Virus record (IMG/VR): IMGVR_UViG_3300030390_000846
Coordinates: 1-22,206 of that record
DNA: 22,206 bases
Strand: one strand, 5' to 3'
Origin: a virus
The notes beneath the pieces were generated by a model. That model worked only from the letters and a program-made list of their open reading frames with translations. It was not told the DNA's origin and did no database searches. The position numbers were made by a program, and so were the translations under genes. The stretch's first letter is position 1, and each line of letters begins with the position of its first letter. Of the stretch, positions 6,356 to 20,899 are shown in pieces.

Positions 6356-7843
6356 TTAGATTCCTTTGAATAATACGAAGTTATTCGCAGCTTGAGTTAC
6401 TAAACATCTTTCTGATAAGAAGTTTACTTCCATTGCATCTAAAGATGAAGTGAAAGCACCACCTACAGAACCAGTTAACCAAGACTTCATTCGTCTGTCA
6501 TCAGCTTGTGAAGCTCTATAACGTACGTGTAAGAATGGTCTTCTAATGTTTGTTCCTAAGATTTGATCGTATACTGTAGAAGTTCCAGCTGGTACTAATA
6601 CACCTTCAATAGATGCAGGTCCAACTAATCCTCCACGAGTAGAAGCATCGTTTAAGTATTTCCAGTCAGTTTTGTAGAAGTCATAAGAACCTCTTCTGAA
6701 TCCAGAAAAACCTAAATTTAATGCCATTTCTTCAGAATTTTCAAATAATCCAAAAGCAGTACCTCCAGCGAATCCACCAGAAATAGAAGCTAACATATCG
6801 TCAAAATCAAGAGCAGTAGATCTGTTCAAGAATAACATGTTTTCTTCGATAGCTCCTTGAGTATCTAAGTTCTTTAGTATAGCATCAAAAGCATCTAATC
6901 CAGCAGCAGCTGTAAAGCCTACTTCTACGTTACCTCTATCTTGGATAGCAGCAAATAAACCTTGAGTACCACCTTGAGCAGCAGGTACAACACCAGCTGA
7001 GTTAAGTTCACCTTCAACCATTGCCATTTCTAAGTAATCTTCAAATCTAAGTCTTGTTTCAGACTCAGCTTTTAGATACCATAAATAACCTCCAGTTCCA
7101 TCTTCAGTAGAAACTTCTACCCAACCGATCTGAGCAGTGTCAGAACCGTTTACAGTGTATTGGCTTCTAATTATAATAGGAGAATTTGTGAATGTAGTAA
7201 ATGCAGGATCTACAGTTACCATAGGGTTTAAAATATTATTACCAACACTTGCAGCGTTAGGTAAAGCATTTGTAGTCGCTGATCCTTTTTGGAAATCAGA
7301 ACCGTATACAAATATCTTAACAGGGTTTCCGTTAGCAATACCGTTAGCAGCTAAATTAGCTCCTTGATATACTTCAACAGTTAACTGTCCTGGGTTACCA
7401 CCACCACCAGCGGCGCGGGTATCAGAAGCAGTAACTAAACACTTTGCTTCGTTACCGAAGTTATCCATTACAACTATTGTTGATAAAGGAGAAACAACGT
7501 TTAAAATTGGTACAGCAGCGTTAGCAGCAGTTACAGGAATTGTAATTGTTGCAGCAGCACCACCAGCACCTGCTACGACGCAGTTGTTGTATGATATGTG
7601 TAATCTTTCTTGTTCTGACCAGATTACTTGATCAGATGTCATTGGCATTTCAGCTCCAACCATTCTTAAGAAACCTGATAACGTTCTGTTACCATATCTC
7701 TCTACTTCTTGCTCATAAAGCTCTGGTAAATATTGTTGTGAAAAATTCACACCATTTGCACCAGCAAAGTTTAAATAGTTAGATGATAATGCTTGTTGTG
7801 ACTGAGATGGGATAATACTCCCAAACTGAGGACTTAAAGCCAT
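6356..7843 (-). CDS. Major capsid protein (HK97-fold type), 495 aa
   Basis: This is the expected major head protein: 495 residues, right after portal and scaffold-like genes. The N-terminal segment is typical of capsid proteins in marine Bacteroidota phages (PELYEQEVERYGNRTLSGF around residues 40-58, then the MTSDQVIWSEQ stretch). Residues about 86-182 are Ala/Gly/Val/Thr-rich, almost without charge, and look like a surface insertion domain. The C-terminal half holds FENSEEMALNLGFSGFRRG, RRPFLHVRYRASQADDRRM and a final ERCLVTQAANNF strand, as expected for P- and A-domain elements. The leader AAAAAAAACAAAAATT before the ATG is very A-rich with no Shine-Dalgarno sequence, typical of strong Bacteroidota initiation sites. 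A hairpin follows the stop. The fold is inferred from order and pattern; a minor head protein is unlikely given the context. Confidence 0.85.
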   Translation of the reverse strand: MALSPQFGSIIPSQSQQALSSNYLNFAGANGVNFSQQYLPELYEQEVERYGNRTLSGFLRMVGAEMPMTSDQVIWSEQERLHISYNNCVVAGAGGAAATITIPVTAANAAVPILNVVSPLSTIVVMDNFGNEAKCLVTASDTRAAGGGGNPGQLTVEVYQGANLAANGIANGNPVKIFVYGSDFQKGSATTNALPNAASVGNNILNPMVTVDPAFTTFTNSPIIIRSQYTVNGSDTAQIGWVEVSTEDGTGGYLWYLKAESETRLRFEDYLEMAMVEGELNSAGVVPAAQGGTQGLFAAIQDRGNVEVGFTAAAGLDAFDAILKNLDTQGAIEENMLFLNRSTALDFDDMLASISGGFAGGTAFGLFENSEEMALNLGFSGFRRGSYDFYKTDWKYLNDASTRGGLVGPASIEGVLVPAGTSTVYDQILGTNIRRPFLHVRYRASQADDRRMKSWLTGSVGGAFTSSLDAMEVNFLSERCLVTQAANNFVLFKGI

Positions 7844-9102: not shown

Positions 9103-11496
9103 TTAGTCAAGTCCAAATTGAGAAAAATCTTCTCCTGTAGTTTCAAAATCTACTGGACCTGAATCGTTTTGTCTTTGGTTTATTAATTGACTTTGTTGAG
9201 TTCCTTGTAATTTAACTCTTTTATCTTTACGATCTTCTATTTGTTGCTCTTTATTATCTTGTTGCCCTATTTTCATTTGAGCTAATTGTTTATTGTATTC
9301 AAATTCTTGAGCTAATAATTGAGATTTTATTTGCATCTCTGTTTGCATTCTCTGTAATTCAAATTGGGATTTAGCTTGCTCTATGTTAAGTTTTTGCTCT
9401 GTTAAAGCTTGTTGTTTTTGAGTTTCCGCTAATGCAACTTCTTGTGCAGTTTTAGTTTGAGCTTGCCCTTGAGCAGCTATAATTTGTTGTTGTTGAGCTT
9501 GATCTCTTTTTATTTTCTTTTTACGTTTTTGCTTTAAAAGTTGATTAGCTAATTTAATGTTTTTTATTTGGCGTATGTCTATAGCGTCTTCTAAATCAAT
9601 TCCACCTCCTTGTAAAGCAATTTGTATATTTTGCTCTAGCATTTGTTGTTCTTCTTCTTCAGGTTCTAATTCTAAATATATACCAAAATCATGAAGATTT
9701 AAATTACTTATTTCAGTCAACGTTTTAGCATTGTACACTGATATACTTTGTAATAAAGCTGAGTGTGTAAGTGGGAAACTTAATACATCTACTATTTTTA
9801 AAGATATATTTTCGCATATTCTAAGAGCTAAATACAAACTAGCTTGATTAATATGTTTAGTAGCTATATTAGATTGATTAGCGGCCATTTTAGCTAAGCC
9901 TACTAAAGCATCTTTATCTGGTAAACTACCATCTCTAGCTTCATTAAGTCCGGTTACGTCACGTATCATTTGTAAATAATATTGATACGTTTGTATAAGA
10001 CTTTGTAATTTAGCACCACCTGATGATGAGGATAATTCTTGAATAGGTATTTTGCCTCTGTTTAATTCTCCATCTTGCGTTAATGATCTACCAACAATAC
10101 TACCAGTTTGGAAATACATGTTTAATGCTTCTGCTGGATTATAGTTTGTGCCATTACCTAAATCAACTTCAGCTAAACCATCCATGTCTAAGAATACACC
10201 ATCTGGAACTAGTCTTGCTAATACTTGTTGCATTTTTAAATGAGTTAACTGTATCATGTCTGCAAAACCAGTAATTTTACTTACTATAGATTCTATTCTG
10301 CCTTTATACATTCTTGGTGCACAAATAGCATAATTCATTTCTACTTTAGTTGTGTCTGCCATGGGTCTAGTCATGTTTTCAGATACTTCCCATTTTAACA
10401 TTGTACTTGTTCCTAAAACCTTAACTCCAGTATATAAAACCTCAATACTTCTTGAAACTTTTTTAAACGTATCCGCTTCCGGTGGGTTAAACATATCTGT
10501 TTTTTGAATTATTTTTTCTAATCCATTATCAGTTTGTTTTAATTTAAAAACTTGATCATGATATGTTTTATATTCAAAATACATTACTTGAACTGTGTTA
10601 TTATCATAATTACCCCAACCAGTTATATACTGTCTATTACCAGGCATTTCTTGAATACGTTGTAATTCGTCTGGTGGTATATTTGGAAATTCTTTTTTAA
10701 GTTCTGGTATAGTTAAAGATTTAACTTCACCTACGTAATATATATCTTGAAAATTAGGATCTTCTGTATATGAATATATCATATGCGCCGGGTCTACGTA
10801 GTCTACAACTATGCCGTTTGCTTTGTTAAACGATGTTTTTGTAGCTGCAATACCGCAAACGACTAAATCATGATTTATTCTACGTTTTGTTAATTGCCAT
10901 TTGTTTCTAGCTAAAGTACTTGTTATAGCTTCTTCTTCTGCTATTTCTATAGCTTGCTTGTAACTAAGTTGCATGTGTAATTCTAACTCTTCTTCAGTTT
11001 CAGGTAATTTATTTAACGGAACGTTAGAGTTTTGAAAACTTGTGCCTAATTGACTTTCAGCTTGGGCCAATATTTCTTTAGCATACATATCTTTTGCTAA
11101 ATTAGTAGCGTAGTCGGTTCTTTTCTTTATTGAATATGGGTCTTGAGAAAAAGCTTTTATATCAAAATTTTTATTTGATATACCATTAACTACTATGTCT
11201 ACAAATTTAGAAATAACAGGAACTGGTTTCCAGTCTAAATTAAGATAAGACAAATCACCATTAATAGATAATTCATCTTTATATTTTTGTACAGATTGCT
11301 CACCTCTAGCGTATAGTCTTAAGTTATGATAATTATTCCAACTTGTAACAAATCTATTACCGTTCGTTCTACCTTGATTAAACCACTCTGTTTCAATAGC
11401 TGAAGCTACTTGTGATCCATATTCCCAAGAAGACTTTTCCGCTGCTGGTACTACCTGACTAGGAAAGGCGCTATTAGAATTAGTATATATATTCAT
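9103..11496 (-). CDS. Portal protein, 797 aa, with long Gln-rich C-terminal coiled coil
   Basis: Portal forms the ring through which DNA enters the head and binds TerL and the adaptor. The gene starts directly after the TerL stop (TAA then ATG, no gap). The N-terminal part has LRLYARGEQSVQKYK and LNLDWKPVPVISKFVDIVVN (about residues 58-104), which I know from portals of marine Bacteroidota phages. The central part has VDPAHMIYSYTEDPNFQDIYY and later PLTHSALL. From residue 613 it changes to EEEEQQ, a basic KQKRKKKIKR patch (about 655-664), then about 100 residues rich in Gln, Glu, Lys and Ala predicted to form a long coiled coil, ending in the acidic EDFSQFGLD. Such a tail would match the barrel of portals from short-tailed phages, although that is inference. 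The large size fits crAss-like or T7/P22-type portals. Confidence 0.85.
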   Translation of the reverse strand: MNIYTNSNSAFPSQVVPAAEKSSWEYGSQVASAIETEWFNQGRTNGNRFVTSWNNYHNLRLYARGEQSVQKYKDELSINGDLSYLNLDWKPVPVISKFVDIVVNGISNKNFDIKAFSQDPYSIKKRTDYATNLAKDMYAKEILAQAESQLGTSFQNSNVPLNKLPETEEELELHMQLSYKQAIEIAEEEAITSTLARNKWQLTKRRINHDLVVCGIAATKTSFNKANGIVVDYVDPAHMIYSYTEDPNFQDIYYVGEVKSLTIPELKKEFPNIPPDELQRIQEMPGNRQYITGWGNYDNNTVQVMYFEYKTYHDQVFKLKQTDNGLEKIIQKTDMFNPPEADTFKKVSRSIEVLYTGVKVLGTSTMLKWEVSENMTRPMADTTKVEMNYAICAPRMYKGRIESIVSKITGFADMIQLTHLKMQQVLARLVPDGVFLDMDGLAEVDLGNGTNYNPAEALNMYFQTGSIVGRSLTQDGELNRGKIPIQELSSSSGGAKLQSLIQTYQYYLQMIRDVTGLNEARDGSLPDKDALVGLAKMAANQSNIATKHINQASLYLALRICENISLKIVDVLSFPLTHSALLQSISVYNAKTLTEISNLNLHDFGIYLELEPEEEEQQMLEQNIQIALQGGGIDLEDAIDIRQIKNIKLANQLLKQKRKKKIKRDQAQQQQIIAAQGQAQTKTAQEVALAETQKQQALTEQKLNIEQAKSQFELQRMQTEMQIKSQLLAQEFEYNKQLAQMKIGQQDNKEQQIEDRKDKRVKLQGTQQSQLINQRQNDSGPVDFETTGEDFSQFGLD

Positions 11497-13710: not shown

Positions 13711-13985
13711 TATTTAGACCTCCCTTCAGCAAAACCACGAAACGTAGTTTCTTTTTTAACTTCTTTAGGCTTTTCATCTAGCATGTCTTGCTCTTCTTGT
13801 ATTCTGGTAAGAATTTCAAAAGCATCAAATATACATAGTTTTTTTGTAGCTGCTGCATTTTTAAGTCTATCAGCAGTAATGTCATCTTCTCCATCTACAA
13901 TAGGTTCTTTAGCAACTTTGATTAATTCTTCAACTGCTACTCGCCCAGCTAGGATTATACTCTGTTTGGTTTTTTTGATTTCCAT
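13710..13985 (-). CDS. Small helical protein upstream of TerL, possible small terminase, 91 aa
   Basis: Almost wholly helical and charged, with LAGRVAVEELIKVAKEP, a DRLKNAAATKKLCIFDAFEI stretch, and a helix rich in E and Q (TRIQEEQDMLDEKPKEVKKE), then a basic end. It is translationally coupled to TerL by TAATG. The position directly before TerL is where a small terminase subunit usually sits, and the length is at the low end for that family. I see no helix-turn-helix motif, so TerS is only a possibility. Its start lies 56 bases inside the preceding 201-residue gene. No later Met gives a plausible start, since the next is residue 68, so the long overlap seems real. Confidence 0.6.
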   Translation of the reverse strand: MEIKKTKQSIILAGRVAVEELIKVAKEPIVDGEDDITADRLKNAAATKKLCIFDAFEILTRIQEEQDMLDEKPKEVKKETTFRGFAEGRSK

Positions 13986-14535
13986 ACTTAATTACAATAT
14001 CATTTGATTTCATACAATATAAACGCTTGTTATCAACTACAAAGTCATATTCACCGTTAGGCGTATAACCTACAGTATCTCCCTCGTTAATTCCTAGCGC
14101 TTCTAATGAGCTATTACCTATTTTTAATATACCAATAAGACTTTGCTCTTTTTCAACCTTAAATTTATTATTACTTTTTACAGGTTGTATAAAACATCTA
14201 TCATTTATAGAGTTCCATTTGTCTTTTGTTTTGTATAAATATATTTGATCTAACGCGCAAAAATATTTATTATTTTTAAAATAAGATCTTGATTTTTTCT
14301 TAACGCCTTTTATATCATAAAAAGTTCTAAACACATTATGATGTATTAATATTAAATCTCCTTTTTTTATAGAAGTTTTATAAGCTAAAGGTGTTGCTAG
14401 CACTTTAGCAACATTATTAACAAACTTATAACTCTCTATTTTTGTATTTAGTATTATATCAACGTTGCCTAATTTTATTTTATTATCATAAGTATCACCT
14501 AGTGGTTCTACTATAAAATCATACAAACTATTCAT
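13930..14535 (-). CDS. Tandem GroES-like (Cpn10-fold) protein, 201 aa
   Basis: The sequence reads as two Cpn10-like modules. Module 1 (about 1-102): LYDFIVEPLG as first strand; a loop with hydrophobic tripeptide I27-I28-L29 like the GroES mobile loop (IVL); KVLATP (44-49), matching the GroES GEVLAVG strand; IKKGDLILIHHN (56-67), matching the KVGD.V.F strand; and a final DQIYLY (96-101) matching the GroES C-terminal strand. Residues 68-95 form an extra insertion. Module 2 (about 111-185): NDRCFIQPV, IGILKIGN (134-141), GINEGDTVGY (148-157), EYDFVVDNKRLYCM and NDIVIKYG (178-185). Module 2 lacks a mobile-loop tripeptide, and both have short links where GroES carries its roof hairpin. Plant Cpn20 is a known tandem Cpn10. 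The TAATG coupling joins it to the upstream gene. A co-chaperonin role is inference; a structural reuse of the fold is possible. Confidence 0.6.
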   Translation of the reverse strand: MNSLYDFIVEPLGDTYDNKIKLGNVDIILNTKIESYKFVNNVAKVLATPLAYKTSIKKGDLILIHHNVFRTFYDIKGVKKKSRSYFKNNKYFCALDQIYLYKTKDKWNSINDRCFIQPVKSNNKFKVEKEQSLIGILKIGNSSLEALGINEGDTVGYTPNGEYDFVVDNKRLYCMKSNDIVIKYGNQKNQTEYNPSWASSS

Positions 14536-18643: not shown

Positions 18644-19096
18644 TTAATTTTTTAAATTATTATCTTTATTTACTGCGTATATAGCTTTAGTTAAAACTTT
18701 ATCTGTATACGAGTTTCCTTTTATTATTTTATTTCTTCTAGCGCTAGTAGGTAATTGCTCTTCTCCTAACATTATTCTATATATTCTATTGATAAGTTGT
18801 TTACATTTAAAACTAACTTTGTATATATTATATTTTTGAGTAGTTCTATTTCTATGCCTCCATACTTTTACCCAATCATTTTTTATTAATCTACTCCATC
18901 TTCTATTATCCCAACTATAAGAATACACGCCTAATTCAAAGTCTTTTTTTGTAAATAAATCTATACAATCTAAATAAATTAATAACTCTAAATCTGCTTC
19001 TCTTAAGTTGTTGTTTTTACAAGCCCATTTGCGTATTATACGGTAATGTTTTAGCAAGTTTAGATTTTTTAAGTCACTTGCTTCTAGCTTTTTCAT
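18644..19096 (-). CDS. Winged-helix (MarR-like) DNA-binding protein, 150 aa
   Basis: Order of elements: helix at 14-26 (LLKHYRIIRKWA), helix at 31-43 (LREADLELLIYLD), a short FTKKDFE helix near 48, a recognition-like helix at 61-74 (SWDNRRWSRLIKND), then a basic wing (VKVWRHRNRTTQKYNIYKVS, about 76-95) and a C-terminal helix (KQLINRIYRIMLG). This matches the MarR-type winged helix-turn-helix. The rest is basic. Its ATG overlaps the groES stop as ATGA, so translation is coupled. A regulator of late genes or of host transcription is possible, and no target site is visible. The winged-helix assignment is from pattern only. Confidence 0.65.
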   Translation of the reverse strand: MKKLEASDLKNLNLLKHYRIIRKWACKNNNLREADLELLIYLDCIDLFTKKDFELGVYSYSWDNRRWSRLIKNDWVKVWRHRNRTTQKYNIYKVSFKCKQLINRIYRIMLGEEQLPTSARRNKIIKGNSYTDKVLTKAIYAVNKDNNLKN

Positions 19097-19353
19097 AAAA
19101 CAACAACCACGTCTTGAGATTTAATGACGTGATATATCTCATTGTCAATATCTATTTTGTGACCAGCGTGCCTATCATAAAATATAACATCTTGTTTTTT
19201 TATTCCTGCTACTTCTCCACCTGCGTCAATAACACTAGCTTTTATATATCTAATGTCATCTCTATGAAGTTCAGCTAAAAGTAAACCACCTTCTGTTTCA
19301 GTAGTACCTTCTTTTATTTTTTGGATTATTAAGTTTCTACCTATTGCTTTCAT
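19093..19353 (-). CDS. groES: Co-chaperonin GroES (Cpn10), 86 aa, short-roof form
   Basis: GroES caps the GroEL ring. The first strand is GRNLIIQKI; the mobile loop has E-G-G then L24-L25-L26 where E. coli has IVL; KASVIDAG matches the GEVLAVG strand; then KKQDVIFYDRHAGHKIDIDN and EIYHVIKSQDVVVVL match the closing strands. Between IDAG and KKQDV only GEVAGI remains, whereas E. coli GroES has about 15 residues there (the roof hairpin). Phage T4 gp31 is known to lack this hairpin, which enlarges the folding cage. It overlaps groEL by 17 bases and is coupled to the winged-helix gene by ATGA. It ends with TGA. The protein is shorter than the usual 95-100 residues because of the roof loss. Confidence 0.9.
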   Translation of the reverse strand: MKAIGRNLIIQKIKEGTTETEGGLLLAELHRDDIRYIKASVIDAGGEVAGIKKQDVIFYDRHAGHKIDIDNEIYHVIKSQDVVVVL

Positions 19354-20899
19354 CTATTCTCATATTATTAATTACACAATCAGTAGATAATATTGTAATA
19401 GCTACAGAAGCCGCATTTATTAGTGCGCTTTTTGTCACTAGTAAAGGATCTATAATTCCTGACTCAACCATGTTTACCATATTTCCTGTAACCACATTTA
19501 GTCCTGTTCCAATTTTTCTTTTTTCTTTTAGCTTAGCAGAATCAATACTTGCGTTGCTAAGAATGGTCTTAAAAGGAGCTTTAATAGCTTCTAACAAAAT
19601 TTCTTCACCTTTGTTATCTGCTTTTATAGAGCAAGCTGCATCTAATAATGCAATACCACCTCCAGGAACTATACCTTCTTTTATTGCGGCTTTCGTAGCA
19701 CAGATAGCGTCTTCAACTCTATCTTGTTTTTCTTTTAATTCAATATCAGAATTTGCACCCACTTTTACAATAGCAACTTTAGCTGATAGTCTAGCTAGTC
19801 TCATTTCTAAACCTATTGTCACGTGAGCTTTGTTTTTCTTTTTTAAATCTTTCTTTATTTGCTTAATAATGTCTTCAATTTCTTTTGAAGTTTCTTCAAT
19901 TTGAATTATAGTTTGATCTGCTGTTGATACAACTTTTTGACACTGGCCTAAGTAATCTATTTTAATAGAATTTAAATCATCACCTAAGTCTTCATTTATA
20001 ATTTTAGCTTTAGTCAATAAAGATATATCATTTAGTATTTCTTTTCTTTTTAAACCATATGCTGGAGCATCTATAACGTTAATTTTTATATTGCCTTTCA
20101 TTTTATTCATAACTAAAGCAGATAAAACACCAGGTTCTACTTCTCCAATTATTAATAAAGGTTTATTATTTTTTATAACATATTCTAGAACTGGTTGTAT
20201 TTGTCTAATAGATTCTACTCTTGATTCTATTATTAACACCTGTGTGTTTTCTAGTTCTGCAGTATTTTTTTCTTTATTAGTAACAAAGCTTTGGTGTGAA
20301 TAACCTTTTGAATATTCTACACCTTCTACTATGTCTACTTCTGTTATACCACTTTCTCCTGGTTCCATTATAACAACACCTGTTTCTCCTACTTCTTTAA
20401 AAGCATAACTAATAAGTTTTCCTAGGTCTTTGTCATTATTTGTTGATATAGTAGCAATTTGATCTATCATATTACCTTTAACAGATATACTTTGATCTTC
20501 TAAATATTTTATAACTTTTTCTACACCACTGTTTATTCCTTTTTTTAAATCTCTATTACTTGTGTTTAATTTTAAACCATAAGATTTATTTAATATAGAA
20601 TGTGCTAATACAGTAGCTGTTGTTGTTCCGTCACCTGCTTCTTTAACAGTTTTTCTAGCTGCTTCTTTTAAAAGTGTTGCACCCATATTTTCGACAGAAT
20701 CCATTAAAATAATTGAATTAGCAACAGTAACACCATCTTTTGTTATAATTGGATTACCATTTACATCTTCCATTATTACACATTTACCGCTAGCTCCAAG
20801 TGTGGAGCTAACAGCTTTTGTGAGTTGTTCTATTCCTTTAAATACTTTGTTTTTAGCTTCGTTTCCAAAACTAAGATTTTTGACTATTGCGTCTGACAT
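19337..20899 (-). CDS. groEL: Chaperonin GroEL, 520 aa
   Basis: GroEL forms the barrel that refolds proteins with ATP. Conserved ATPase elements are intact: TLGASGK (33-39), ITKDG with D55 (E. coli D52), AGDGTTTATV with D90 (E. coli D87), RVEDA with D397 (E. coli D398), and the VPGGG loop (411-415). The apical region includes SKGYSHQSFVTN and the hydrophobic groove region LEYVIKNNKPLLIIGEVEPG. The C-terminus ends in NNMRIDESNR, without the GGM repeats of E. coli GroEL (548 residues), so the chamber floor tail is missing. The stop is TAG. It lies upstream of groES and overlaps it, the reverse of the usual bacterial groES-groEL order. A phage version for folding virion proteins is the natural reading. 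Confidence 0.95.
   Translation of the reverse strand: MSDAIVKNLSFGNEAKNKVFKGIEQLTKAVSSTLGASGKCVIMEDVNGNPIITKDGVTVANSIILMDSVENMGATLLKEAARKTVKEAGDGTTTATVLAHSILNKSYGLKLNTSNRDLKKGINSGVEKVIKYLEDQSISVKGNMIDQIATISTNNDKDLGKLISYAFKEVGETGVVIMEPGESGITEVDIVEGVEYSKGYSHQSFVTNKEKNTAELENTQVLIIESRVESIRQIQPVLEYVIKNNKPLLIIGEVEPGVLSALVMNKMKGNIKINVIDAPAYGLKRKEILNDISLLTKAKIINEDLGDDLNSIKIDYLGQCQKVVSTADQTIIQIEETSKEIEDIIKQIKKDLKKKNKAHVTIGLEMRLARLSAKVAIVKVGANSDIELKEKQDRVEDAICATKAAIKEGIVPGGGIALLDAACSIKADNKGEEILLEAIKAPFKTILSNASIDSAKLKEKRKIGTGLNVVTGNMVNMVESGIIDPLLVTKSALINAASVAITILSTDCVINNMRIDESNR

Follow-up and report, generated by a model that had tools for sequence, protein, structure and literature searches.

The standard example of a phage remodeling the GroEL chamber is gp31 of T4, and the virus record analyzed here (22,206 bases, the whole of which is called the window) raises the question of whether another phage has done the same. 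An initial annotation of the window had proposed that the GroES encoded at positions 19093-19353 lacks the roof hairpin as gp31 does, that this trait may have arisen independently, and that it could provide a larger chamber for a 495-residue capsid protein. The frame is intact on the minus strand, and its 86-residue, 9.6 kDa translation reads MKAIGRNLIIQKIKEGTTETEGGLLLAELHRDDIRYIKASVIDAGGEVAGIKKQDVIFYDRHAGHKIDIDNEIYHVIKSQDVVVVL. It matches Pfam Cpn10 (PF00166, E=6.4e-9) at 36.2 bits, above the curated cut-off of 21.1, as well as phrog_3188 (co-chaperonin GroES, E=3.6e-10). Comparison with seven relatives gives dN of 0.12-0.21 and dS of 0.67-1.1 (dN/dS ~0.13-0.25), so the gene is kept by purifying selection. 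By sequence and predicted fold, then, this locus encodes a genuine co-chaperonin of the Cpn10/GroES family that has no roof hairpin.

The key feature of the protein is the segment at the place of the roof, counted here between the residues aligned with G44 and K60 of E. coli GroES, whose reference sequence was confirmed against MG1655. In the window GroES this segment is GEVAGI (residues 46-51, codons at 19201-19218, minus strand), 6 residues lying between ...VIDAG and KKQDVIF, whereas the matching anchors in E. coli enclose NGRILENGEVKPLDV, which is 15 residues long, as is the corresponding segment in Thermus; the figure of about 15 in the initial annotation is thus borne out. The segment of gp31 measures 8 residues, and the claimed likeness to gp31 in this respect holds as well.

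Because a plain tblastn search of isolate phages with the window GroES returned only 2 matches, relatives were gathered from viral contigs by way of both GroEL and GroES. The Flavobacterium-type and marine-phage-type GroES queries used were approximate, and only the database sequences that they retrieved were counted. Among 68 distinct close viral relatives, the roof segment has 6 residues in 61, 5 in four and 8 in three, and in a second viral lineage, whose GroES proteins are mostly 33-48% identical to that of the window, it is exactly 6 in all 43 distinct sequences. The short segment is therefore constant over 111 distinct viral sequences in two lineages, and the absence of the roof is real and conserved. 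That a frameshift, an assembly error or a misalignment conceals a normal roof is extremely improbable: although the initial annotation had seen one contig only, no support for such an artefact was found, the same length class recurs in 68/68 and 43/43 relatives, which rules out frameshift and assembly error, and both flanking anchors align within an intact reading frame. One relative (locus L075, 10820-11110) has an internal tandem duplication, DRHAGHKIVFDRHAGHRIEV, its GroES having 96 residues versus 86 in the window.

The predicted structure is likewise that of a Cpn10 barrel without its roof. An AlphaFold2 monomer model built from a 40-sequence alignment (pLDDT 86.7) contains strands at residues 7-17, 36-44, 56-60, 65-69, 72-78 and 82-85, and residues 45-55, between the second and third of these, are modeled as coil. 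A hairpin that might substitute for the roof was sought in this monomer model and none was found, which speaks both against an alignment artefact and against an ordinary roof built from residues elsewhere in the chain. In Foldseek, the top PDB matches of the model are all Cpn10 proteins (probability 1.00, TM-score by query 0.58-0.71), with gp31 (1g31) at rank 30. The protein thus displays the beta-barrel fold of the family and not its roof beta-hairpin (6 versus 15 residues, coil in the model), and the missing roof does not disqualify it, since gp31, an accepted member, is also roofless (PMC6318259). Confidence is lowest, as expected, in the mobile loop (pLDDT 68 for residues 21-30). The mobile-loop segment (residues 11-40; 19234-19323, minus strand) retains the hydrophobic tripeptide, with GGLLL aligned to the GGIVL of GroES and with G22, G23, L24 and L26 invariant across 40 sequences. 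By alignment, this segment spans 30 residues in the window GroES, 27 in E. coli and Bacteroidota GroES, and 32 in gp31.

How large a change the missing roof represents depends on the host from which it is measured. The terminase large subunit of the window phage (11497-13710, minus strand; phrog_6681, E=5.8e-166) has its matches among phages of Flavobacterium, Cellulophaga, Tenacibaculum and Maribacter, so a host among the Flavobacteriia is likely for this marine phage. In Bacteroidota GroES the roof segment is already shortened, to 10 residues in 78/78 distinct sequences, which makes E. coli the wrong baseline for this comparison; the step from such a host to the phage would be 4 residues rather than 9. 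Typical Bacteroidota GroES also occurs in two genome records (loci L137 and L193) whose titles name Candidatus Rokubacteria and Streptomyces griseus; these assemblies are probably mislabelled or contaminated.

A short-roofed host protein invites the explanation that the roof is simply dispensable, having been trimmed by genome economy or by drift with no effect on clients. Shortening is common among small phage proteins, the roof is likewise missing from the N-terminal domain of chloroplast Cpn20 (5 residues), and trees that join the window lineage to Bacteroidota GroES are not rejected (p-AU 0.307). Against this, the length is held tightly (exactly 6 in 61/68 and in 43/43), and these proteins have gained 2-3 residues in the mobile-loop segment, which is not what plain shrinkage would produce. 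The distribution of roofs among other phages, considered next, bears on trimming in both directions, and overall the explanation appears unlikely, if still worth entertaining.

The roof segment has 15 residues in 14 sampled isolate phages (Hallingskeid, CM1, D93, 1/44, EJP2, 1.050, phiVP505, BcepSaruman, Motura, RaK2, 1.031, PHA46, 121Q and immuto). It has 6-9 residues in gp31 and its T4-like relatives, in Vibrio phages SRILMA and D69, in jumbo phage CBB, in Bacteroides phage SJC03, and in Elemovirus, Maribacter phage Panino and MW202828; in the case of RB49 CocO, no gene so labelled was found within the 40 kb of the RB49 record examined. The absence of the roof from many unrelated phages is what trimming of a dispensable element would predict, and its retention at full length in many others is what such trimming would not. 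A GroES tree was constructed from 58 sequences and 82 columns after those covering the roof had been excluded; it has few columns and several long branches. On this tree the roofless state changes 8 times (6-8 in bootstraps), at least 5 of these changes being forced by well-supported branches, and a single clade of all roofless GroES is rejected (p-AU 5.5e-5). Together these results support recurrent loss of the roof, which affects T4-like and jumbo phages as well as those of Bacteroides and marine phages. Independence of the window lineage from gp31 itself is neither supported nor rejected, a tree forced to unite the two in one clade giving a p-AU of 0.475. Roof loss is no peculiarity of the window phage, nor does phage protein folding in general require it, since the 14 phages listed above keep all 15 residues. 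Among related jumbo phages (L381, L389 and L393), the GroES of CBB is roofless, with 7 residues, and those of Hallingskeid and EJP2 retain 15, so that the loss in CBB is apparently recent.

Immediately upstream of groES lies a gene for the phage's own GroEL (19337-20899, minus strand; 520 aa, 56.1 kDa; phrog_5725, E=1.4e-136), the end of which overlaps the start of groES by 17 nt (19337-19353). In hosts the canonical order is groES-groEL; it is reversed in the window phage, and groES comes first in phages immuto and SJC03. Residue mapping indicates that the catalytic residues D52, D87 and D398 are kept, and that positions at or near the inter-ring interface differ from those of E. coli (E461D, V464K, E434K and R452K). 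The GGM tail is absent from the window GroEL, as it is in 108/108 loci of the first lineage and 57/57 readable loci of the second; the GroELs of flavobacteria bear a GGM-rich tail in 7/7. GroEL adjoins GroES in all 108 first-lineage loci and in nearly all second-lineage loci.

Downstream lies a gene for a 150-residue protein (18644-19096, minus strand) that matches phrog_17028 (unknown function, E=2.5e-8); its start codon and the groES stop overlap by 4 nt. By synteny the gene accompanies groES in both viral lineages: the two share a strand in the lineage of the window and lie on opposite strands in the second, so the association has survived an inversion. More broadly, the order 96-aa protein, GroEL, GroES and 150-aa protein, followed further on by a 201-aa protein, a 91-aa protein, the terminase and the portal protein (9103-11496, minus strand; phrog_6547, E=9.9e-147), is collinear in ~100 viral loci as far as the contigs reach, a few of these loci being the same contig twice. 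The presence of GroEL in marine phages of a similar general kind is already known (Nishimura 2017, PMC5332604), and both GroEL and GroES have been reported in Maribacter phage Panino (PMC11590407), where the GroES (L114:8767-9033) is annotated in its record as a mere hypothetical protein.

Taken together, these features make it reasonably probable that the window phage produces an open-topped GroES lid that caps its own GroEL, yielding a roomier chamber for phage proteins, of which the capsid protein is the likeliest client. The groES gene would be co-transcribed with the phage groEL, and its product would most likely cap this group I chaperonin, the hydrophobic tripeptide of the GGLLL loop docking on the GroEL apical domain. 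Seven barrels would assemble into a ring, the top of which may stay open because a turn of 5-8 residues replaces the dome-closing hairpin of GroES. Combined with a modest lengthening of the mobile loop and a GroEL that has no GGM tail, the open top could then give a somewhat roomier chamber, in which phage proteins, and the capsid protein most plausibly, would be folded. The sequence, its conservation, the predicted monomer fold, the linkage to GroEL, and the absence of both roof and tail are observed directly, whereas the heptamer, its pairing with the phage GroEL, the open top, the chamber volume and the client are inferred. Counting against the arrangement, some positions of the GroEL apical domain with known roles in binding substrate or GroES are altered (L234Q, Y203S and V264M), and the roofless GroES of Elemovirus, with a mobile-loop segment of 27 residues, shows no loop lengthening; the 15-residue roofs of the 14 phages listed above and the mass of the capsid protein, discussed next, also weigh against it.

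Whether the chamber needs to be larger is a separate matter. The candidate client, probably the major capsid protein (6356-7843, minus strand; phrog_13704, virion structural protein, E=4.7e-82), is 495 residues long, in agreement with the initial annotation. Its mass of 52.7 kDa is below that of gp23, the gp31 client (~56 kDa), and lies within what is usually cited as the GroEL-GroES size range; no need for extra space is therefore evident. Capsid-family frames of 476-504 residues in 10/10 relatives rule out a very large capsid protein as the driver. In T4, the gp31 chamber is 8% larger (194,000 to 210,000 cubic angstroms), a gain ascribed to greater mass and to longer loops (22 versus 16 residues), and, with the roof gone, the opening is wider and may allow part of the substrate to protrude (PMC6318259); specificity may also rest on features subtler than size (PMC3012670). 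For the window phage, the mobile-loop segment (+3) and the tailless GroEL, which would free some chamber volume, point toward enlargement and lend that part of the original proposal partial support. The argument from the size of the capsid protein is weak; accommodation through the open top, or else specificity for particular clients, is no less likely.

A second Cpn10-like gene complicates the assignment of the lid. The 201-residue protein (13930-14535, minus strand) matches phrog_13932 (co-chaperonin GroES, E=1.6e-23 over residues 1-182), and its C-terminal part aligns with a GroES profile (hhalign E=1.5e-4); its Pfam Cpn10 score falls below the cut-off, and no sequence-level match was found for it in the PDB. 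The best Foldseek match of its model is Cpn20 (7ekq_R; 203 columns, E=3.9e-4), with a model pLDDT of only 62.6, too low for structural claims about individual domains, which were dropped. The protein is a candidate co-chaperonin, probably with two tandem GroES-like domains in the manner of Cpn20. Its gene lies near the terminase, ~4.5 kb from groES, and is conserved in that position in nearly all relatives whose contig extends that far. That a single phage can carry a pair of GroES-like genes is known from jumbo phage CBB (PMC5259590).

Conceivably, the partner of the roofless lid is the GroEL of the host and not that of the phage, or the lid enters a mixed ring with the tandem protein after the manner of chloroplast Cpn10 and Cpn20, which build hetero-oligomeric rings (PMC5780408). 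The retention of the second gene and its structural match to Cpn20, albeit through a low-confidence model, would fit such a scheme, but it is groES that overlaps the phage groEL by 17 nt while the tandem gene stands ~4.5 kb off, and the low pLDDT and the sub-threshold Pfam score weaken the case further; on these grounds the scheme seems improbable. A broader reading, in which the phage possesses a complete chaperonin altered at both ends of the chamber, with one GroEL capped by two different lids, or by a mixed ring suited to virion proteins, and with the Cpn20-like lid encoded beside the terminase, is doubtful as well, though slightly less so.

Comparisons with known systems place the proposed open-topped lid over a phage-encoded GroEL among several partial parallels. 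Like the window GroES, gp31 is a phage-encoded Cpn10 fold with no roof hairpin; its mobile-loop segment is 5 residues longer than that of GroES, and the segment of the window 3 residues longer. The parallel is nevertheless inexact, because T4 uses the GroEL of its host whereas the window phage encodes its own, adjacent to groES; the likeness is structural, the gp31 profile giving no convincing match to the window GroES (hhalign E=0.11, probability 0.5). Closer in gene order are Elemovirus (Flavobacterium), Panino and MW202828, in which a roofless GroES directly follows GroEL and a tandem cpn10 gene is also present, as it is in Cellulophaga phages; their GroES proteins are only ~35% identical to that of the window, and the mobile-loop segment of Elemovirus is 3 residues shorter than that of the window group. 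Bacteroidota hosts share the Cpn10 and Cpn60 folds and the GroEL active site, and differ in their 10-residue roof segment, 27-residue loop segment and GGM-tailed GroEL. The chloroplast pair resembles the window proteins in the tandem Cpn10 architecture of Cpn20 and in the very short roof segment of its N-terminal domain (7ekq_R), although these are proteins of a eukaryotic organelle. Phages EL, OBP and AR9 also encode a GroEL, but theirs need no co-chaperonin (PMC9598537), whereas that of the window has an adjoining GroES.

Overall, loss of the roof is a recurrent event in phage co-chaperonins, one that has become fixed in widespread environmental lineages that bring their own GroEL. These recurrent losses would constitute natural replicates in which the role of the roof could be tested, a role that in T4 is confounded with longer loops.
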